From the NCBI GenBank assembly GCA_024686035.1, contig JAIBDW010000004.1, forward strand, positions 1 to 52,732: a stretch of DNA of 52,732 bases, read 5' to 3'. The notes under the pieces were generated by a model that saw only the letters and a program-made list of their open reading frames with translations, was not told the origin of the DNA and made no database searches. The position numbers and the translations under genes are program-made. This document shows, one piece after another, positions 27,277-38,540 of the stretch (positions are counted from its first letter, which is position 1; every line of letters starts with the position of its first letter). The DNA comes from Oceanospirillaceae bacterium. Its GTDB lineage: Bacteria; Pseudomonadota; Gammaproteobacteria; Pseudomonadales; Balneatricaceae.

Positions 27277-27903
27277 TTACGAAAGGCTAGCGGAAGATTT
27301 TAAACGCACATACATAATCGCCGTCGTAATAGCATCGCCCAAAGCGGTATGGCGACCTAATATAGGCACATCCAAGGTTTTGGCAATAGCTTCAAAGGAC
27401 AGGTTAATTTGATATTCCGCACCCCCTGATAAGCGTGCTTTATTGCGATACAAATCCATCACATCAACACAAGAGTTTGGCAACCCGAATTCATACAATG
27501 GTCTTAGGTGCCTATCTAATACGGCTAAATCATAGGCGATGTTGTATCCAACAATCGGACGGTTACCTACAAATTTAAGCATTTTTTTCAATGCTTCCTC
27601 TAGAGGTAAGCCTTCATTTAGGTCCATACGTCGCAGTTTATGGATTTTAACCGAAGCCTTTGGCAACTCGTTAGGCGAAGCTAAGGTCACCGATAGCTTG
27701 TTGCTACTCATGACACGGTTACCTCTAATTACCACTGCGGCTATGGACAATATTTGCGCTTTTGCAACATCTAAGCTTGTGGTCTCTATATCCAAAGAGA
27801 CTAGCTCTTCACCTTGATAGCGATTAAAAAGATACATCCATGAGCTCTTAAGCTGGCGCACCTTCCACACATCTTTAATACGGCGTAATCTTCGCTTTAG
27901 CAT
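27277..27903 (-). CDS. DnaQ-like DEDDh 3'-5' exonuclease
   Basis: This 208-residue protein has a DEDDh exonuclease domain at about 33-200. ExoI is 'SLDIETTSLD' (Asp38, Glu40), ExoII is 'VGYNIAYDLAVLDRHL' and ExoIII is 'GRHTALGDAITTA', with the catalytic His and Asp intact. The basic N-terminus 'MLKRRLRRIKDVWKVRQLK' is typical of the group found beside DUF294 proteins. Its start overlaps the upstream DUF294 stop (TAATG), so the two are made together. The substrate (DNA, RNA or small oligonucleotides) is not shown by the sequence. It is distinct from DNA polymerase III epsilon, being shorter and outside the dnaQ context. Confidence 0.88.
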   Translation of the reverse strand: MLKRRLRRIKDVWKVRQLKSSWMYLFNRYQGEELVSLDIETTSLDVAKAQILSIAAVVIRGNRVMSSNKLSVTLASPNELPKASVKIHKLRRMDLNEGLPLEEALKKMLKFVGNRPIVGYNIAYDLAVLDRHLRPLYEFGLPNSCVDVMDLYRNKARLSGGAEYQINLSFEAIAKTLDVPILGRHTALGDAITTAIMYVRLKSSASLS

Positions 27904-29741
27904 TATAGTCCTGTACCTAGACGGTACCTTAATGAGAGGTGTTTTTTAAAGTCTTTGACCACCTGAAAAGACTGACGCAATAAATCCTTATCTAAGCGAT
28001 CCAAAGCACTTACATTGATATCGTTATTGATTTCCTTTGCACTGCAGCCACTTTCTTGCTGCTTGAGGTGATGAGCCAAGCGAAACCACTGCAACAGCGA
28101 AAAAGAGTCCTTGAGTTCGCTACCCAAACGTTGTGGTAAAACACCCAACTTAATTAAGGTTTCAATACGTTTATATGTATTGGTTTCGGCCACTTGGTAT
28201 TGCATAGAAAGCACTCGTACACCGTGTACAATGGGGAAGATCCCCCCTTTTTTGACATCGATGCCAGATGCTCGGTCTCTGATCCCTCCCAAAAAATTCA
28301 GAGGCGTTTCAAATACTAAAGTAACCTCTGCAAATAAAGATAAAAATCGCTCTTGTTGTTTGAGCTCTTTCAACAACCAATTACGACTGGTCTTAAATAA
28401 GGCCTTATTACCTGCAACAGGGTGTGCGTCTATAGAGATTGCTAGATTTAACAAACTGTCGCTATCTGCTTTTGCCACCCAGTCGCGCATGCGCTGAGTC
28501 CACTCGCTGATCGGCTGCACCCAAAACGGATTACTAACCATCACCCTACCTGGGCACTCAGGATAGCCTAGATCAACAAGTGCTTGGCTGTATACTTCTA
28601 AGGTTTGATGACATTCTGGCCAATCTAGACCATCTCGCATAATAAGACCGTTGTCTTGGTCAATTCTGATGACCTGTTCACCGCGGCCTTCACTGCCCAT
28701 AACCACCAAACACACATGAGGTAATAGGCTTTCTGGAACCACAATATTAAATAGCTTTGACATCAATCTATTATTAAGAGCAGCTAACAGATCCATAGCA
28801 AAACGGATTTTAACTCCTTGAGAATATAAGGAACGGATTAGATCACCCATATCCCCCGCTGCTGCCTTGAGCTGTTCAATATTTGTGGCCCGCTCAATAC
28901 GCAATCCAACCACATGAGAGTGGCTTGAAAAATAGCTTAAGGTATCTGCTAGGTCAATGATTCCATGTAGTTTAGAATCTTTCATCACGACCACACGATC
29001 AATTTGGTTGGCCGTCATCAACACCAGGGCGTTAAATAGGTAATCACCAGACTCCACCGTGATCAGCCTATAGTTTGCAATCGCTTGCGCATCCGTAGTC
29101 ACAGGCAGCTTGTCTAGGACAATTGCATTTAACAAGTCTGTACGAGTCACAATGCCGTAACGACTTCCACGTTGCACCAACACACAATCAACCTGCTGAT
29201 CACTCATGTAAGCGGTGGCGCCTTCTAGATCAGTACCGTTAGGCAACAATGCAGCTTCTCGCATACATGAGCTGTCTATACGAGCGAGCATGAACTCGGT
29301 CATATTTAGTGAATCGCCTCTTTGGGCTAGTAGCTGCTTTTGTAATGATAAGTCTTTGTTAAAAAAATCACCAAAACTTGGATTGCGATAGATTAAATCC
29401 AACAAAATTTTCGTGGGAAGCAAATAACAAATCGTTTCTTCATCAGCTACAAAGTCATGAATTGCAGTGCCACGAAGCGCCGACCAAGCGCCAAAATAAT
29501 CATCATTAGTGTAATGAACAAAAGTATGTCCATGATTTACATCTGAACTTTGGACATCCAGTTCACTCACACACCCTTTAAGAATGATATACAACCCCTC
29601 TGGGGCATCACCTGTTTTGATAATGACTTCACTGGCCTGATAGTAAACAATATCAAAGTTGTCTTGTAGCAAACTGCGCTCATCTTCGTTTAATAAATTA
29701 AACGGCAAAACATCGGTGTTGAACCCACTACTAATTTGCAT
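27903..29741 (-). CDS. cNMP-binding/CBS/DUF294 nucleotidyltransferase-like protein
   Basis: This 612-residue multidomain cytoplasmic protein may regulate the adjacent symporter. A cyclic-nucleotide-binding fold lies at about 18-125 ('GDAPEGLYIILKGCVSELD'), followed by a CBS pair at about 155-275. A GlnD-like DUF294 nucleotidyltransferase domain is at about 300-470, with motif 'GSEGRGEQVIRIDQDNGLI', and a DUF294_C helical domain ends it. The NTase core G-S-x-G-R-x-E and D-x-D are intact, so catalysis is possible. It sits 35 bases after the symporter large subunit and overlaps the exonuclease gene. The ligand and reaction are unknown; the gene set recurs in many proteobacteria. Confidence 0.88.
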   Translation of the reverse strand: MQISSGFNTDVLPFNLLNEDERSLLQDNFDIVYYQASEVIIKTGDAPEGLYIILKGCVSELDVQSSDVNHGHTFVHYTNDDYFGAWSALRGTAIHDFVADEETICYLLPTKILLDLIYRNPSFGDFFNKDLSLQKQLLAQRGDSLNMTEFMLARIDSSCMREAALLPNGTDLEGATAYMSDQQVDCVLVQRGSRYGIVTRTDLLNAIVLDKLPVTTDAQAIANYRLITVESGDYLFNALVLMTANQIDRVVVMKDSKLHGIIDLADTLSYFSSHSHVVGLRIERATNIEQLKAAAGDMGDLIRSLYSQGVKIRFAMDLLAALNNRLMSKLFNIVVPESLLPHVCLVVMGSEGRGEQVIRIDQDNGLIMRDGLDWPECHQTLEVYSQALVDLGYPECPGRVMVSNPFWVQPISEWTQRMRDWVAKADSDSLLNLAISIDAHPVAGNKALFKTSRNWLLKELKQQERFLSLFAEVTLVFETPLNFLGGIRDRASGIDVKKGGIFPIVHGVRVLSMQYQVAETNTYKRIETLIKLGVLPQRLGSELKDSFSLLQWFRLAHHLKQQESGCSAKEINNDINVSALDRLDKDLLRQSFQVVKDFKKHLSLRYRLGTGL

Positions 29742-29776: not shown

Positions 29777-31600
29777 TCAATAGTATGCAGAGCCCGTATT
29801 TCTAGGAACACGAATGTTTTGCACGATATTTTGTATATGTTTGGGCGGTTCAGGCGTTAAATTTGACACCAGGTATGCCACGATAAAGTTGAGCATCATG
29901 CCTAAAGCACCAAAGCCTTCAGGAGAAATCCCCAGCAACCAATCACTAGGCTTGCCACCCATGAATTTAAAGTAGGCGATATAACATATGGTAGAAATCA
30001 AACCCACCAGCATGCCACTTATGGCACCATATTTATTCATCCGCTGGTAAAAAATACCCATAATAATGGCAGGGAAAAATGACGCACACGCCAAGCCAAA
30101 GGCCAAAGCCACCACAGCAGCCACATAGTCTGGAGGGTTCATACCCAAATAACCGGCAACGAGAATCGCCACCATAGCCGCCAAACGGGCCGCAAGCAGC
30201 TCTTGTTTATCCGTTATTTTAGGTCGAATGGTTTTTTTAATTAAATCGTGAGATACGGCAGTCGCAATCACTAATAGCAACCCTGCTGCAGTGGATAATG
30301 CCGCTGCCATGGCACCTGCTGCAATCAAAGCAATGACCCAATCAGGCAATTCAGCAATTTCTGGATTAGCCAGCACCATAATGTCTGGATCAACGTAAAT
30401 TTCATTCGCAAAGGGCTGAACTTTCGGGTCAAACTCGCCACTACTTGGGTTAATGACATGACGTTGGTTATAGTAAAAATTTCTGGCCACCTTATCTTCT
30501 GCAGTGCCCCAATAAATAGGTTTGTGCTGGCGACCTGTAAAGGCATCTCCTGCGGCATACTGAGTGCGGCCATCGGCATTGTGATCATACCAAGCGATCA
30601 AGCCGGCATTTTCCCACTTCTTAAACCATTGGGGCATTTCTTCGTATGCTGTGCCTGTATTATCTGCGCCGTTTACCGTTTCTATGAGATTGATACGCCC
30701 AAACGCCGCCACCGCAGGAATTGTGGAATAGAGCAATGAAATGAATACCAAAGCCCATGCAGCTGATATACGTGCATCACGCACTCTGGGTACAGTGAAA
30801 AAACGCACAATTACATGGGGCAATCCAGCAGTGCCGAACATTAAAGAAGCGGTGATAAAAAACATATCCATGTTACTTTTACTGCCTTCAGTAAAACTTG
30901 CAAAACCAAGCTCTGTCACTAAAGCATCCAAATGGTCTAGTACAGGTTGCCCATTACTTAAGGTGGCCCCTAAACCTGTTTGTGGCAATAAATGTCCGGT
31001 CATGGAAAAGGTCAAAAATAATGCGGGGACTGTAAAAGCAAAAATCATCACACAGTACTGGGCCACCTGCGTGTATGTGATGCCCTTCATACCTCCCAAA
31101 ACAGCATAAACAAACACCACAGCCATGCCGATCATAACGCCAGTGTCTATTTCTACTTGAAGAAAACGAGAAAATACAATGCCAGTGCCACGCATTTGTC
31201 CTGCGATGTAGGTGAATGAAATAAACAACACGCAAATGACAGCCACTACTCTGGCAACGCTTGAGTAATAACGATCACCGACGAAGTCAGGCACTGTAAA
31301 TTTACCAAATTTACGTAAGTAAGGCGCCAGCAGCAACGCCAACAGCACGTAACCACCAGTCCAGCCCATAATAAATCCACTGGCATCATAGCCAGCAAAA
31401 GAAACAATGCCTGCCAACGAAATAAATGAAGCAGCGGACATCCAATCAGCTGCAGTGGCCATGCCATTAGCCAGAGGGGTTACACCGCCTCCTGCCACAT
31501 AAAACTCTTGCGTACTTGATGCCCTGCTCCAAAACGCGATAGCGATGTAGATACCAAAAGACCCTACCACAAACATGTAAGTGAGCTGTTCTAGGCTCAT
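29777..31600 (-). CDS. Sodium:solute symporter, large subunit (VC_2705 type)
   Basis: This 607-residue SSS-family transporter is of the two-subunit type whose small partner is DUF4212. Thirteen or so membrane segments are visible, with the sodium-site regions 'AADWMSAASFISLAG' and 'MAAALSTAAGLLLVIATAVSHD'. A hydrophilic insert of about 100 residues (roughly 300-410) separates two helices and contains a calcium-loop-like 'DHNADGRTQYAAGD'. Context (crbS, crbR and acs next door) suggests acetate or another short carboxylate as substrate. That is inference; the family is also annotated as ActP-like without proof. Confidence 0.9.
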   Translation of the reverse strand: MSLEQLTYMFVVGSFGIYIAIAFWSRASSTQEFYVAGGGVTPLANGMATAADWMSAASFISLAGIVSFAGYDASGFIMGWTGGYVLLALLLAPYLRKFGKFTVPDFVGDRYYSSVARVVAVICVLFISFTYIAGQMRGTGIVFSRFLQVEIDTGVMIGMAVVFVYAVLGGMKGITYTQVAQYCVMIFAFTVPALFLTFSMTGHLLPQTGLGATLSNGQPVLDHLDALVTELGFASFTEGSKSNMDMFFITASLMFGTAGLPHVIVRFFTVPRVRDARISAAWALVFISLLYSTIPAVAAFGRINLIETVNGADNTGTAYEEMPQWFKKWENAGLIAWYDHNADGRTQYAAGDAFTGRQHKPIYWGTAEDKVARNFYYNQRHVINPSSGEFDPKVQPFANEIYVDPDIMVLANPEIAELPDWVIALIAAGAMAAALSTAAGLLLVIATAVSHDLIKKTIRPKITDKQELLAARLAAMVAILVAGYLGMNPPDYVAAVVALAFGLACASFFPAIIMGIFYQRMNKYGAISGMLVGLISTICYIAYFKFMGGKPSDWLLGISPEGFGALGMMLNFIVAYLVSNLTPEPPKHIQNIVQNIRVPRNTGSAYY

Positions 31601-31653: not shown

Positions 31654-31917
31654 TTATTCATGCACATCAAACTCACTATCAAGGCGCCCCATACGGATTG
31701 CATAAGCGATAGTCAGTGCACAAAAAACCAGAATGCTGCCCTGATTAGCAAACCAATAACCCAATTTAAATCCAAATATATTGAATTGATTTAGTTCATC
31801 CACAAAAACAATGCCAAAGCCAAAAGAAACCACAAACCAAATCACAAGGTAGGAAAAAATGATTTGTAAGTTACGCCGCCAATATTGTTGTGCTTTATTA
31901 ATATCTTTTTTCATCAT
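31654..31917 (-). CDS. DUF4212 sodium:solute symporter small subunit
   Basis: This 87-residue membrane protein has two hydrophobic helices (about 17-40 and 53-73) and an early 'YWRRNLQIIFSYLVIWFVVSF' that is characteristic of DUF4212. It belongs with the large symporter subunit that begins 53 bases downstream. A ribosome site AAAGG precedes the ATGATG start. It opens the minus-strand unit symporter-DUF294-exonuclease, and a 17-bp palindrome sits in its leader. Confidence 0.9.
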   Translation of the reverse strand: MMKKDINKAQQYWRRNLQIIFSYLVIWFVVSFGFGIVFVDELNQFNIFGFKLGYWFANQGSILVFCALTIAYAIRMGRLDSEFDVHE

Positions 31918-31937: not shown

Positions 31938-31954
31938 TTATGATTCAATCATAA
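31938..31954. promoter_or_regulatory. 17-bp perfect palindrome upstream of the DUF4212 gene
   Basis: TTATGATT-C-AATCATAA is a perfect inverted repeat with 8-bp arms and a one-base centre, 20 bases upstream of the DUF4212 start. It is followed on the minus strand by an A-rich tract up to the ribosome site. It could be a repressor operator or a leader hairpin occluding initiation; the sequence does not decide. Confidence 0.4.
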
Positions 31955-32086
31955 CCACTTGCAGGATCTAGGGCAACGACATTGTCGGCTAAAGACCTAA
32001 GTTCAGGTGCACTGCTAAACCATAAAAACAAACATTAGACCTTAGTATAAACAATTGTGAGAAAAAACATAGGTAATTGATTTTAA

Positions 32087-32105
32087 TAAACTTTACCAAA
32101 GTTTA
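32087..32105. promoter_or_regulatory. 19-bp inverted repeat, candidate CrbR operator (crbS/DUF4212)
   Basis: TAAACTTT-ACC-AAAGTTTA has perfect 8-bp arms. It lies between possible -10 elements for both directions: TATACT (minus) at 32044-32049 toward the symporter genes, and TATAAA at 32135-32140 toward crbS. Its core TTTACCAAAGT is repeated exactly upstream of acs. Assignment to CrbR is inference from the shared context. Confidence 0.5.
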
Positions 32106-32183
32106 GTTTTAAGGCATAAAACCAGCTGACGTGTTATAAATAGCCAAGGTTTATTTCTTCTGTCTTAACATTGCAGGCATCAC

Positions 32184-35100
32184 ATGCTCGATATTTGGGT
32201 CATTCTGTTTATTTCACTTGCTTATGTAGGTTTGCTATTTGGCATTGCTTACTATGGCGATAATCGCCCTCAACAAGGCTCAAAACTGCTTAGCCAACCT
32301 GTAATCTATAGTTTATCTTTAGCTGTTTATTGCACTTCATGGACTTTTTACGGGTCAGTTTCCCGTGCAACTCAAGGCTGGGACTTTCTCTCCATTTATC
32401 TTGGCCCAATACTGCTATTCACCTTTGGTTGGGGTTTAGTTTATAAAATGATCCTTATTGCCAAGCAAGAAAACCTGACTACCATTGCTGATTTTATTGC
32501 TTCAAGATACGGTAAGAGCCGCAGCTTAGCGATCGTCATTACTGTGATGGCCACTTTTGGCATATTGCCTTATATTGCGCTTCAGCTAAAAGCAGTTGCT
32601 CAAAGTTTTACCATTATGATTTCCGGGGGTGGAAGTTCAGACTTTGGATCCAGCAACACTGCACTAGTGATTGCGATTTTGATGGCAGCCTTTGCCATTT
32701 TATTTGGCACTCGACAGATAGACACCAGTGAACACCATCGTGGTATGGTGCTGGCTATTGCGTTTGAATCTATCGTTAAGCTCGTGGCATTTGTGGCTGT
32801 GGGCTTATTTGTTACTTTTAGTCTATTTGATGGCATTGCCGATTTAAGCGCTCACATCAACCAGAGCGGCCTACAACAGCAACTAGATCACTTTAACCCT
32901 TTAAGAGTGAGTTTTCTTACTGAAACATTATTGGCATTATTAGCCATGCTTTGTCTTCCAAGGCAATTTCAAGTGGGCATTGTTGAAAATACAAACCCCA
33001 ACGATTTACATACAGCACGTTGGTTGTTTCCATTGTACCTCATTATATTCTGTATTTTTATGCTGCCCATTGCCGCTGCGGGTAGCTTTCTTTTTGGTGG
33101 ACAAGATATATCCACTGATACCTACGTACTGATGGTTCCCCTAAGCCAAGGTGCAAGTAGCATAGCCACCTTAGCCTATATAGGAGGCCTTTCTGCCGCC
33201 ACAGGCATGGTTATTGTGGCCACCGTGTCTATCAGCACCATGATCAGTAACGACATTGTCATGCCCGTCATTTTTCACTTGTCCCCACTCCAAGCGTCAG
33301 AAGACAAAAATATAGGTCGCTTGCTACTCAAAGTGCGCCGAGTGGTAATTGTGGCCATGTTATTAGCGGCTTATGGTTACTTTTTATTAATTGGTGATGG
33401 TAAAAGTTTAGTTTCTTTAGGTTTAACCGCTTTTGTTGCCGTTGCTCAGTTTGCACCCGCGTTGATCGGGGCTGTGTTTTGGCGCCGAGGCAATCGCTAT
33501 GGTGCCTTAGCTGGCTTAGGTACAGGCTTCACCATTTGGATATATACCCTTATGGTACCTAATCTAAGTGGCCTTGGGTTTGATACCTTAAGCTTAGTAG
33601 AAGATGGATTATTTGGTATTGGCTGGCTTCGACCCACCTCTATGTTTGGACTGGAAGGGTTTGACCCCATAACTCACGCCACATTGTTATCTCTAAGCTT
33701 AAACATTACTGCTTTTGTATGGGTTTCTAGGCTCACGCAAGCTCGCTTACAAGACCGGATCCAAGCAGACCATTTTGTGGATCTAAGATTAAGCCAATCC
33801 ATAGGCAATACTGACAATAACTTTGAAAACACACGTTTTAGTGACCTTCAAACCCTTTGTGAGCGCTTTTTAGGTACCAATAGAACTCATGAAGCCTTTC
33901 ATCAATTTGCTCGTGCACAAAACCGCGACCTTAACTTAAATGACCCCATAGACCAAGCGCTAGCCACCTATGCAGAACGCCTCTTAGCTGGCGTTATTGG
34001 CGCATCCTCGGCCCGCATCATTGTCGCTTCCAGCCTAATGGATACTGAGATGCATTTAGGCGACGTGGTGTCTATTGCTGATGAAGCTTCTGCCCTTTTC
34101 CAGTTTAACCGCACCATGTTGCAGTCTACCATTGAGCACATTGACCAAGGTATCAGTGTAGTAGATAAGGACATGCGCTTGGTGGTGTGGAATCAACGTT
34201 ATCAGGAAATGTTTGGGTTTCCTGAAGGACTTATTAACATCGGCAGGCCCATTGAAGAAGTCATTCGTCATAACGCACTTAAGGGTGACTATGGTTTAGG
34301 TATCCTTGAACAACAAGTTGAACAACGCCTAAGCACAATGGTAGAGGGCAAAAGCAGCACTCACTTGCGATATAGAGCTGATGGCGCTGTGTTTGAGGTG
34401 CGAGGCAATGCCATGTTAGGGGGTGGCTACGTCAACACCTATATGGATATTACTAACCACAAACGTATTGAAGCAGCCTTAAAAGAAACCAATGAAACCC
34501 TAGAGCAACGTGTTCAAAACCGTACCAAAGCTTTGGTCGTGGCCAATGATGAATTAAGTCAAGCAAAAATTGGCGCAGACCAAGCGAACCAGAGTAAAAC
34601 CCGTTTTTTAGCCGCAGCAAGCCATGATTTAATGCAGCCTCTTAATGCAGCACGACTATTCTCTTCATCATTGTCACAACAACACCCTACAGGCAAGCTT
34701 TCAGAGACCTTACACCATTTAGATGATTCGTTAGGCGCAGCTGAGGAGCTAATTGGCACTTTAATAGAAATCTCTAAGCTTGATGCAGGCAATTTGTCGC
34801 CTAAGTTGAGCCATTTCCCAATCGATAAAATGTTACAAAAACTAGCCGCAGAGCTGTCTTTATTATGTCAACAAAAAGGCATTGAATTTAACTACATCCC
34901 CTGTACCGTAACCGTTTACAGTGACGAACAACACTTGCGGCGCATCGTGCAAAACTTTTTAACCAATGCCATGCGCTACACCCCAAAGGGTAAAGTGTTG
35001 CTGGGCTGTCGATTGAAACAAAACGCCATCGAAATTCAAGTTTGGGATACTGGCATAGGTATAGCGCCTCAAAAGCTTACTGAAGTATTTGAAGAGTTTA

Positions 35101-35684
35101 AACGCCTGGACCACCCAGCGACTCAAGACATCAAAGGCTTAGGTTTGGGCTTAGCAATCGCAGATCGCACAGCCAAACTACTGGGTCACCATTTGACAGT
35201 AAAATCATGGCAAGGCAGTGGCAGCTTATTTGGCATTCTTGTACCTGCTGGAGACCCAGATAAGGTCATCGCTAAAGCCTCTACCCACACTCAATACCAT
35301 AGTGGCAGTGGAAGTTTGGCTAATATGATTGTGCTATGTATAGATAATGAAGCGTCTATACTACTTGGAATGGAACAAGTGCTGTGTGGGTGGGGATGTA
35401 CTGTAATTAAAGCCCTTAGCACCTCTCAAGCCTTACAGAATCTGGCCGATGCTGATGTGCAACCTAGTGTGATCTTGGCGGATTACCACTTGGACCAGGA
35501 CCAAACAGGCACTGCCGCGATCGCAAGAATAAGGCAAGTGTACCAATGCCAAATCCCTGCCATCTGTATTACGGCTGATCGCACAGAAGAAGTAGCAAAA
35601 CTGGTGTCTGATGAGGATGCATTGCTGCTAAACAAGCCGCTAAAGCCTGCTGCACTTAGGGCCACATTAAGTCGCCTTAGATGA
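32184..35684 (+). CDS. crbS: CrbS-type SSS-domain hybrid sensor histidine kinase
   Basis: This 1166-residue sensor kinase has a sodium/solute symporter-like membrane domain at about 1-520 as its input. A STAC linker (about 545-625, 'CERFLGTNRTHEAFHQFAR') and a PAS domain (about 635-745, 'IDQGISVVDKDMRLVVWNQRY') follow. The HisKA phospho-acceptor is in 'AASHDLMQPLNAARLF' (His814). The HATPase has N box 'NFLTNAMRYTP' and 'DTGIGIAP', and a C-terminal receiver domain carries Asp1100 ('ADYHLDQDQTG'). In Vibrio and Pseudomonas CrbS with CrbR controls acs and acetate use, and here crbR and acs are adjacent on the opposite strand. The architecture also fits the ErcS'/NahK-like group, but the neighbours favour CrbS. 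Confidence 0.9.
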   Translation: MLDIWVILFISLAYVGLLFGIAYYGDNRPQQGSKLLSQPVIYSLSLAVYCTSWTFYGSVSRATQGWDFLSIYLGPILLFTFGWGLVYKMILIAKQENLTTIADFIASRYGKSRSLAIVITVMATFGILPYIALQLKAVAQSFTIMISGGGSSDFGSSNTALVIAILMAAFAILFGTRQIDTSEHHRGMVLAIAFESIVKLVAFVAVGLFVTFSLFDGIADLSAHINQSGLQQQLDHFNPLRVSFLTETLLALLAMLCLPRQFQVGIVENTNPNDLHTARWLFPLYLIIFCIFMLPIAAAGSFLFGGQDISTDTYVLMVPLSQGASSIATLAYIGGLSAATGMVIVATVSISTMISNDIVMPVIFHLSPLQASEDKNIGRLLLKVRRVVIVAMLLAAYGYFLLIGDGKSLVSLGLTAFVAVAQFAPALIGAVFWRRGNRYGALAGLGTGFTIWIYTLMVPNLSGLGFDTLSLVEDGLFGIGWLRPTSMFGLEGFDPITHATLLSLSLNITAFVWVSRLTQARLQDRIQADHFVDLRLSQSIGNTDNNFENTRFSDLQTLCERFLGTNRTHEAFHQFARAQNRDLNLNDPIDQALATYAERLLAGVIGASSARIIVASSLMDTEMHLGDVVSIADEASALFQFNRTMLQSTIEHIDQGISVVDKDMRLVVWNQRYQEMFGFPEGLINIGRPIEEVIRHNALKGDYGLGILEQQVEQRLSTMVEGKSSTHLRYRADGAVFEVRGNAMLGGGYVNTYMDITNHKRIEAALKETNETLEQRVQNRTKALVVANDELSQAKIGADQANQSKTRFLAAASHDLMQPLNAARLFSSSLSQQHPTGKLSETLHHLDDSLGAAEELIGTLIEISKLDAGNLSPKLSHFPIDKMLQKLAAELSLLCQQKGIEFNYIPCTVTVYSDEQHLRRIVQNFLTNAMRYTPKGKVLLGCRLKQNAIEIQVWDTGIGIAPQKLTEVFEEFKRLDHPATQDIKGLGLGLAIADRTAKLLGHHLTVKSWQGSGSLFGILVPAGDPDKVIAKASTHTQYHSGSGSLANMIVLCIDNEASILLGMEQVLCGWGCTVIKALSTSQALQNLADADVQPSVILADYHLDQDQTGTAAIARIRQVYQCQIPAICITADRTEEVAKLVSDEDALLLNKPLKPAALRATLSRLR

Positions 35685-35727: not shown

Positions 35728-36390
35728 TTATTTAACAGGCTCATCTTGAGGGTGCTCAATACGCAAACGGCCCGCTAGAATAACGGCCTGCGTGCGGCTA
35801 TAGACACCAAGCTTGCGCAATATTGCTGTGACATGGGCCTTTATAGTGGCCTCTGACACACTCAATTCATAAGCAATTTGTTTATTAAGTAGCCCTTCAG
35901 TTAGCATCACCATGACCTTAAACTGCTGAGGGGTTAAGCTTGCCAGTTGATCAGCAAACTTGCTGTCTTGAGCATCCATTTCTTTGTCGGCTGCTGGTAA
36001 GTCTGCTGGCACCCATTGACCACCATTAAGAACCACTGAAATAGCTTCGATAATATCTGACATTGAAGAAGATTTAGGAATAAAACCTGCCGCACCAAAA
36101 TGCATAGTGCGGTGGATTACACTGGCTTGCTCATTACCTGAGACGACTATGACGGGCACACTTGGAAAGTGATTACGTAAATAGATCAGCCCTGAGAAGC
36201 CATTAGCCCCAGGCATGTGTAAGTCTAATAACACCAAATCTATTTCACTATGCATTTGGCGCTCTAAATGCTGCAGGTGCTCCGCTTCTAACACCTTCGC
36301 ACCATCAACTTGCGCACCGATAGCTTGAGTTAACGCCGCCCGAAATAACGGATGATCATCAGCTACGATAATGGTGTAAGCATTAGACAT
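35728..36390 (-). CDS. crbR: CrbR, LuxR-type response regulator
   Basis: CrbR is the response regulator that activates acs in Vibrio and Pseudomonas. The 220 residues hold a receiver domain at 1-125 with acidic pair 'VADDHPLF', phospho-acceptor Asp56 ('LVLLDLHMPG') and switch Lys ('FIPKSSS'). A LuxR/NarL helix-turn-helix follows at about 152-215 ('LLNKQIAYELSVSEATIKAHV'). It lies 35 bases downstream of acs on the same strand and so is probably cotranscribed with its own target, which would make a positive loop. It converges with crbS. Confidence 0.9.
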   Translation of the reverse strand: MSNAYTIIVADDHPLFRAALTQAIGAQVDGAKVLEAEHLQHLERQMHSEIDLVLLDLHMPGANGFSGLIYLRNHFPSVPVIVVSGNEQASVIHRTMHFGAAGFIPKSSSMSDIIEAISVVLNGGQWVPADLPAADKEMDAQDSKFADQLASLTPQQFKVMVMLTEGLLNKQIAYELSVSEATIKAHVTAILRKLGVYSRTQAVILAGRLRIEHPQDEPVK

Positions 36391-36425: not shown

Positions 36426-38366
36426 CTATTTATTGCAGCGATTTTCAATTAATTCTGTCACTACACCTGGGTCTGATAAAGTCGATGTGTCCCCCAACTC
36501 ACCAAAATCGTTAGCCGCAATTTTACGCAAAATACGGCGCATAATTTTACCTGAACGTGTTTTTGGCAAATTAGGTGCAAATTGAATTAAGTCTGGAGAC
36601 GCAATAGGGCCAATTTCTGCTCTGACCCACTGCCTCAATTCCTTCATTAATTCAGCACTACTTTCAACACCATCCTGTAATGTAACATAACAGTATATGC
36701 CTTGGCCCTTAATTTCGTGTGGGTAACCTACCACGGCAGATTCACACACCGCTTTATGCGCAACCAAAGCACTTTCTATTTCGGCAGTGCCCATGCGATG
36801 GCCTGAAACATTCAACACATCATCAACACGGCCGGTAATCCAATAATAGCCATCTTCGTCTCTTCTTGCGCCATCACCTGTAAAGTAATAGTTGGAAAAG
36901 GTTGAGAAATAAGTTTCTTCAAAACGATGATGATTGCCCCAAATAGATCGAGCTTGGCCAGGCCAGCTGTCCTTAATCACTAGATTGCCTTCAGTGGCAC
37001 CTTCTAGCTCACGCCCCTCATTATCCACTATCGCTGGCTGTACACCAAAAAATGGTAAGGTTGCTGAACCAGGCTTAGCATCCACGGCACCAGGCAATGG
37101 CGTAATCATGTGACCACCTGTTTCTGTTTGCCACCATGTGTCCACCACAGGAGCATTACCCGTGCTAAACACACGCCTATACCAAAGCCAGGCTTCAGGG
37201 TTGATCGGCTCTCCTACACTACCCAAAACGCGAATACTTGATACATCAGCGCCTGATAAAACATCGTCGCCATGCTGCATTAGTGCACGTATCGCTGTAG
37301 GTGCAGTATAAAACTGGTTGACTTTGTGTTTTTCAATCACCTGGCCAAAACGAGCATTGGTAGGGTAATTAGGTACGCCTTCAAACATCAATGTCGTAGC
37401 ACGGTTTGCAAGTGGCCCATAGACGATGTAGCTGTGCCCGGTAATCCAGCCTACGTCGGCTGTACACCAATATACATCACCTGGGTTGTAGTCAAACACA
37501 AGCTCATGGGTCATTGCACTCCACACTAAATAGCCTGCAGAAGTGTGCTCTAGACCTTTAGGTTGGCCAGTGGAACCGGAGGTATACAGAATAAACAGAG
37601 GGTCTTCTGCGCCCATCACTTCGGGTTCATGCTCAGTGCCAGCAGGAGCCACGATGTCACCGTACCATACGTCTCGGCCTTCTACCCAATTGATGTCAGC
37701 GCCTGTGCGCTTAACAACAATAACAGTTTCAACACAATCTACGTTAGTTAAGCCAGCATCTACGTTGGCTTTTAAACCAATTTTCTTGCCACCACGTAGA
37801 CCCTCATCCGCCGTGATCACAATATTACTTTTAGCACCTTGCACACGTCCTGCAATGGCATCAGGGGAAAAACCACCAAAAATGACCGAATGCACTGCGC
37901 CAATGCGGGCACACGCTAACATGGCGACTGCCGCTTCAGGAATCATGGGCATGTATAAGGTGATTACATCGCCTTTTTTTGCACCTTGAGCCAATAAAGC
38001 GTTACTAAACTGACACACTTCTTGATGTAACTCTTTGTAGCTGATGTGACGAGAGTCGTTAGGGTCATCACCTTCCCAGATAATGGCGATTTCGTCACCG
38101 TGGTCCGCCAAATGCCGGTCTAGACAGTTAGCTGAAACATTGAGTTTTCCATCAGCATACCATTGGATTGAGACATCATTTGGAGTGAACCTAGTATCTT
38201 TTATATTAGTAGGCGCCTTAATCCAATCCAGTCTTTCGCCCTGCTTACGCCAGAACTCTTCTGGGTCTGTTACTGACTGCTGATACATGGCTTCACGTTT
38301 TTCTTGATTCAGTCCAGAGGCTTGGGCAATTGCTGCATCTGCTGGATATGTCTTCACATCACTCAT
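36426..38366 (-). CDS. acs: Acetyl-CoA synthetase
   Basis: Acs converts acetate, ATP and CoA to acetyl-CoA through acetyl-AMP, allowing growth on low acetate. The 646 residues match the family. The AMP-binding P-loop motif '[11 protein letters not shown]', '[13 protein letters not shown]', the acetate-pocket '[16 protein letters not shown]' and the A10 lysine in '[15 protein letters not shown]' (Lys607, the usual regulatory acetylation site) are all visible. A good ribosome site AGGAAC precedes the ATG. It shares an operon with crbR, and a candidate activator site lies upstream. Confidence 0.97.
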
Positions 38367-38408: not shown

Positions 38409-38437
38409 TTTATACCAAGTTAGAGCGCATATTAAAA
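38409..38437 (-). promoter_or_regulatory. Candidate activator-dependent acs promoter
   Basis: On the minus strand a good -10 TATAAA (38409-38414) has a 17-base spacer to a poor -35 TTTTAA (38432-38437). The start would be about 36 bases upstream of the acs ATG. A weak -35 is what an activator-controlled promoter usually shows. Confidence 0.4.
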
Positions 38438-38441
38438 TACT

Positions 38442-38452
38442 ACTTTGGTAAA
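38442..38452 (-). promoter_or_regulatory. TTTACCAAAGT motif upstream of acs, candidate CrbR site
   Basis: TTTACCAAAGT on the minus strand is identical over 11 bases to the core of the crbS/DUF4212 inverted repeat. It is centred about 45 bases before the inferred start point, next to the -35, as expected for an activator touching RNA polymerase. A related ACCAAGTTAG lies on plus at 38414-38423. Confidence 0.45.
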
Positions 38453-38540
38453 TACAGACTTTCATTAGTAAACTTATCTTGCCTTGAGGCATGGCATGGG
38501 CCATGATTTGTTACTATGATTTCAATTAATATTATTACTT

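Follow-up and report, generated by a model that had tools for sequence, protein, structure and literature searches.

The window (the whole stretch of DNA analysed, 52,732 nucleotides) carries, in this order, crbS on the plus strand and crbR and acs on the minus strand. To the left of crbS, all on the minus strand, lie the genes for a DUF4212 small symporter subunit, an actP-like symporter and a cNMP-binding/CBS/DUF294 nucleotidyltransferase (Table 1). The assembly to which the window belongs has 2.1 Mb and is 94% complete. Among GTDB genomes its close relatives are MAGs of the Oceanospirillaceae, including one with the name ASP10-02a, and the same family holds Marinobacterium, Nitrincola, Neptunomonas and Neptuniibacter. 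Most of the family loci examined keep the order actP-DUF4212/crbS, crbR-acs. DUF4212 and crbS are about 3 kb apart in several related loci (L058, L091, L093, L096, L098 and L109), with other sequence between them, so the divergent arrangement is sometimes broken.

Domain searches found a kinase, a PAS and a receiver (REC) domain in CrbS. Its N-terminal part matched no Pfam model; a sodium/solute symporter model matched it at 1.6e-11, well below the model cut-off. CrbR consists of REC and GerE domains, and its best NCBIfam match is NF041830 (ErdR), with 250 bits against a cut-off of 390 for a model of type 'exception' that may be narrow. The pair thus has the CrbS/R architecture, an SLC5-like part, PAS, kinase and receiver in the sensor and a NarL/LuxR-type regulator beside it. 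The DNA-binding helices (helix-turn-helix) of CrbR are nearly identical between the genus and the family. A second CrbS/CrbR-like pair, with identities of about 52% and 49%, is present in many members of the genus (L050-L055, six other genomes). Its neighbours in L053 are a FadD11-like acyl-CoA ligase and a LivG-like ABC transporter ATPase, and some of these copies have ACTU-like palindromes upstream. The 94% complete assembly of the window itself yielded no second pair. Elsewhere in the same genome, contig C108 (L037:5738-10120) holds an apparent mevalonate-pathway cluster, judged by eye from translations, with ORFs resembling HMG-CoA synthase, mevalonate kinase and type-2 IPP isomerase. Such a cluster is unusual for a gammaproteobacterium.

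Table 1 Genes and predicted regulatory features of the locus, in window positions
Feature	Position	Strand	Remarks
cNMP-binding/CBS/DUF294 nucleotidyltransferase	27903-29741	-	domain search
actP-like sodium/solute symporter, VC_2705 family	29777-31600	-	TIGR03648, 819 bits (cut-off 321)
DUF4212 small symporter subunit	31654-31917	-	TIGR03647, 113 bits (cut-off 26)
Predicted DUF4212-actP -10, TATGAT	31948-31953	-	TGGTTAT[GCT]AT conserved in most genus members
CTTTAGCCGACAATG, putative degenerate remnant at the place of the related genera's actP-side operator	31980-31994	-	assigned from position
Strongest CrbR-type (ACTU) site, TTATACTAAGGTCTAAT	32034-32050	-	between DUF4212-actP and crbS; palindromic core 32036-32049
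Second exact TTTACCAAAGT copy	32092-32102	+	81 bases before crbS; weak; not conserved
Predicted crbS -10, TATAAA in CGTGTTATAAATA	32135-32140	+	conserved in main genus subclade
crbS	32184-35684	+	SLC5-like membrane part, PAS, histidine kinase, receiver
crbR (erdR-like), NarL/LuxR-type response regulator	35728-36390	-	REC + GerE
acs, acetate--CoA ligase	36426-38366	-	TIGR02188, 986 bits (cut-off 725)
Predicted acs -10, TATAAA preceded by CTTGG	38409-38414	-	CTTG[GA]TATAAAT in most of genus alignment
Predicted acs operator, ATTTACCAAAGTAGTAT	38437-38453	-	17-bp register of published ACTU motif; 11-mer = 38442-38452

The block upstream of acs

A sequence-only reading of this DNA had singled out an 11-base word, TTTACCAAAGT, as a crbS operator core copied beside the acs promoter, and had taken it for the operator of a class-II activator tied to CrbS/R. 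The word does occur exactly at 38442-38452 in the sense of acs and at 32092-32102 in the sense of crbS, with gaps of 75 bases to the acs start codon (38366) and 81 bases to that of crbS (32184). The centre near -45 proposed for it at acs also agrees with our map, in which ACCAAAGT is centred at about -43.5 if TATAAA at 38409-38414 is the -10. This promoter would start transcription at about 38402, leave a leader of about 36 nt and place the 17-mer ATTTACCAAAGTAGTAT at -51 to -35.

EM motif discovery in 28 family acs upstream regions returned TAGACCAATGTCTAATT, essentially the published ACTU motif, with the genus sequences in the same register. ACCAA[TG]GTCTAATT is present in all 38 distinct acs upstream regions from outside the genus, with 31-32 bp from its centre to the TATAA of the -10, and the orthologous block, in variant form, lies 31 bp before the -10 in 8 of 8 genus upstream regions (31 bp from operator centre to TATAA in the window). 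The site thus keeps its place and spacing in 46/46 distinct sequences, which are related by descent, so that such counts are not independent trials. The total leaves out L056, a locus with neither crbS nor crbR beside acs, where the acs upstream region showed no clear site. Of the 17 site columns, 12 do not vary within the genus alignment, compared with 17 of the 200 other columns; because the site is conserved while the surrounding spacer is not, it looks like a footprint.

Most of the genus has TTAAGCCAAAGTAGTATT at this block rather than TTTA-CCAAAGTAGTATT. The site of the window matches the consensus at 11 of 17 positions, its core ACCAAAGT fits the ACTU inverted repeat, and it ranks 28 of 52,719 with a symmetric matrix, 34 with the family matrix and 78 with the published one, so that sequence alone would not call it. 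The symmetric matrix replaced one that mixed family and published sites in a single unsymmetrical register, whose ranking was noisy owing to a one-base offset between the two sets. Core, position and conservation in 46/46 upstream regions agree with the proposal of a class-II operator, and we conclude that 38437-38453 is very probably a degenerate CrbR operator, a site already explained by the known ACTU motif.

The consistently different genus form, TAAGCCAAAGTAGTATT, might reflect weak CrbR binding or another protein. It is off the family consensus at several positions with the CrbR recognition region unchanged, and acs sites of the genus score low on matrices from outside it, as would be expected if another regulator had taken the site over, or if a decayed CrbR site were kept mainly as promoter context (UP-like or -35 DNA). 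We regard both possibilities as improbable, given that the genus site retains the core CCAAAGT with flanking ATT in unchanged register and spacing, and that crbS and crbR still stand beside acs.

Another alternative, that the two 11-mers are a chance match between AT-rich intergenic sequences and neither of them is an operator, draws on the frequency of such matches. Dinucleotide shuffles of the two gaps shared an 11-mer on either strand in 6.9% of trials (2.9% in the same orientation), and 6/120 gap pairs of the window hold one in common. An 11-base match is therefore not the improbable event that it had been taken for; the exact identity was ruled out as evidence, and it does not support linking acs to crbS. 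Neither the acs nor the crbS 11-mer was found in exact form in any aligned genus relative; since the acs site is degenerate in the genus (TAAGCCAAAGTAGTATT; here TTTACCAAAGTAGTATT), the word itself is peculiar to the genome of the window. Chance accounts for the identity of the two words, which we consider largely a coincidence, and largely for the crbS copy. It does not account for the acs site, a block that is among the most conserved upstream parts and whose distance from the -10 is constant throughout the family, and as an explanation of the whole it is very improbable.

Other words were tried and rejected. The 2.1-Mb assembly contains five exact TTTACCAAAGT copies, of which the remaining three lie inside coding ORFs, and the 11-mer was dropped as a genome-wide regulon marker. 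A stricter palindrome pattern found only 32036-32049 and one site at a coding-ORF edge in contig C128. The 'related' ACCAAGTTAG (38414-38423) overlaps the extended -10, CTAACTTGG followed by TATAAAT, which is conserved as promoter; its operator score is lost in relatives, and it is not a second conserved operator. The genus variant GCCAAAGTAGTATT failed as a new regulon word, with a single exact copy per genome in the seven genomes having one and near-matches scattered.

The gap between DUF4212-actP and crbS

Outside the genus, 31 of 32 distinct gaps have an ACTU-like site on the actP side, 86-98 nt before DUF4212 and often CAGACTAAAGTCGGGG; in about half of these gaps it lies 31-34 bp before a recognisable -10-like sequence. 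A second site, also in 31/32, is found about 190-225 nt from DUF4212 and mostly 66-121 nt from the crbS start. The conservation of this crbS-side site in related genera suggests that CrbR may autoregulate crbS across the family. Autoregulation of crbS is not reported in PMC5436829, and PMC5715377 has only a non-significant prediction (q = 0.6).

The genus is arranged differently. Its actP-side site is intact in L041 (TAGACTTTAGTCGACAT), and other members keep only part of it. The strongest site in the window, absent from the sequence-only reading and about 50 bases from the crbS 11-mer copy, stands in mid-gap: its core TAGACCTTAGTATA ranks 1 of 52,719 with the symmetric matrix, whose training sites all came from outside the genus, and 32034-32050 also comes first when the published P. 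fluorescens matrix is used. Nine of 12 genus members have it at the same place, and the three of greatest divergence lack it. Measured from the predicted starts, its centre lies at about -101 for DUF4212-actP and about -104 for crbS, and it is therefore a class-II site for neither promoter.

That the crbS 11-mer is itself a working CrbR site making crbS autoregulated is a separate claim, and one we find doubtful. Its centre, 85.5 nt from the crbS start, is where related genera keep their crbS-side site and within the 66-121 nt range of most of them, and for crbS of P. fluorescens a weak ACTU match is predicted (q = 0.6; PMC5715377). However, 32092-32102 ranks 43 of 52,719 with the symmetric matrix trained outside the genus, misses the acs spacing to the predicted -10 by about 5 bp, and is altered in every genus relative, including a sister genome with a 97%-identical CrbS (TTATCAGAGTC). 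The evidence does not support naming it the operator core of crbS, in contrast to the first rank and conservation of 32034-32050; instead of arising purely by chance, the copy may be what is left of a crbS-side site in erosion. The earlier proposal thus guessed rightly at an acs operator, while its identity argument and its crbS half were mostly wrong in detail.

Two further blocks before crbS are conserved, neither of them resembling ACTU: 32068-32088 (CATAGGTAATTGATTTTAATA), of which the TTGATTTTAA part is present even in the most divergent genus members, and an inverted repeat at 32106-32122 (GTTTTAAGGCATAAAAC) that adjoins the predicted crbS -10.

The simplest reading of these gaps, drawn from few genomes, is that the two old sites eroded and a mid-gap site was gained. 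A wider rewiring of CrbR operators in the genus, with both gap sites lost or eroded, one strong shared mid-gap site gained and the acs site weakened, is a tentative proposal to which we give somewhat less than even odds. On this view the two gap sites of related genera serve one promoter each, which would make crbS autoregulated there. If true, it would mean that the setting of the acetate switch changed without change in the DNA-binding helices of CrbR, and the genus would offer a minor example of operators turning over while the regulator stays the same.

A probable CrbS/R acetate switch and its known counterparts

Taken as a whole, our preferred reading, to which we assign a probability of roughly 85%, is that phosphorylated CrbR, driven by CrbS, activates acs through 38437-38453 and also acts from the actP/crbS gap. 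CrbS, encoded by the neighbouring gene, would respond to acetate-utilising conditions and phosphorylate CrbR. A CrbR dimer would then bind around -43.5, where the imperfect inverted repeat with its ACYNNNGT core is centred beside a weak -35, and help sigma-70 RNA polymerase at the extended -10 of acs. Phosphorylated CrbR would likewise recruit RNA polymerase to the DUF4212-actP operon, and in this genome its action from the actP-crbS intergenic region would run mainly through 32034-32050. The anatomy of the site, its conservation, its spacing and its match to the published motif are direct observations, and the function of the motif is taken from P. fluorescens; from these we infer CrbR binding, the regulation of acs, the point where its transcription starts and the steps that lead from acetate to CrbR.

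The CrbR/ACTU regulon was defined in Pseudomonas and has been surveyed in Vibrio and others. The analysis carries it over to an uncultured marine lineage, together with the named relatives of that lineage, and gives exact, testable candidate operators for them. The crbS-side site across related genera turns autoregulation of the acetate sensor into a concrete hypothesis.

Sepulveda and Lupas found that the ACTU repeat is needed for CrbR-dependent activation in P. fluorescens, where it occupies -52 to -36 relative to the mapped start of acs, with an acs leader of 34 nt; four point mutations in it abolish activity, and in E. coli CrbR activates the promoter only if the motif is intact (PMC5715377). 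ACTU is present in the acs and actP promoters of many Gammaproteobacteria, published examples being TACTACCATCGTCGAAT (acs) and TACTACCAAAGTCTAAT (cheV, predicted) (PMC5715377). The window has the same two-component genes and targets as P. fluorescens CrbS/R, and its predicted acs site, likewise an imperfect inverted repeat with an ACYNNNGT core just upstream of the acs -35 and found also at the actP operon, agrees in position within 1 bp. The nucleotidyltransferase-like product is similar in kind, compared by domain description only, to Pflu5625 of P. fluorescens, a known CrbS/R target (PMC5715377). Unlike in P. fluorescens, the predicted acs site is degenerate in the genus of the window, and crbS, crbR, acs and actP form one cluster, whereas the P. 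fluorescens locus tags are far apart.

The system is also like MxtR/ErdR of P. putida KT2440, a homologous sensor and regulator for acetate use, in which ErdR binds the promoter region of the actP-I operon (PMC8402216). At acsA-I of P. putida, ErdR binding in vitro was not detected and no ACTU motif was identified near the start codon (PMC8402216); the acs gene of the window differs from acsA-I in that a candidate site is present.
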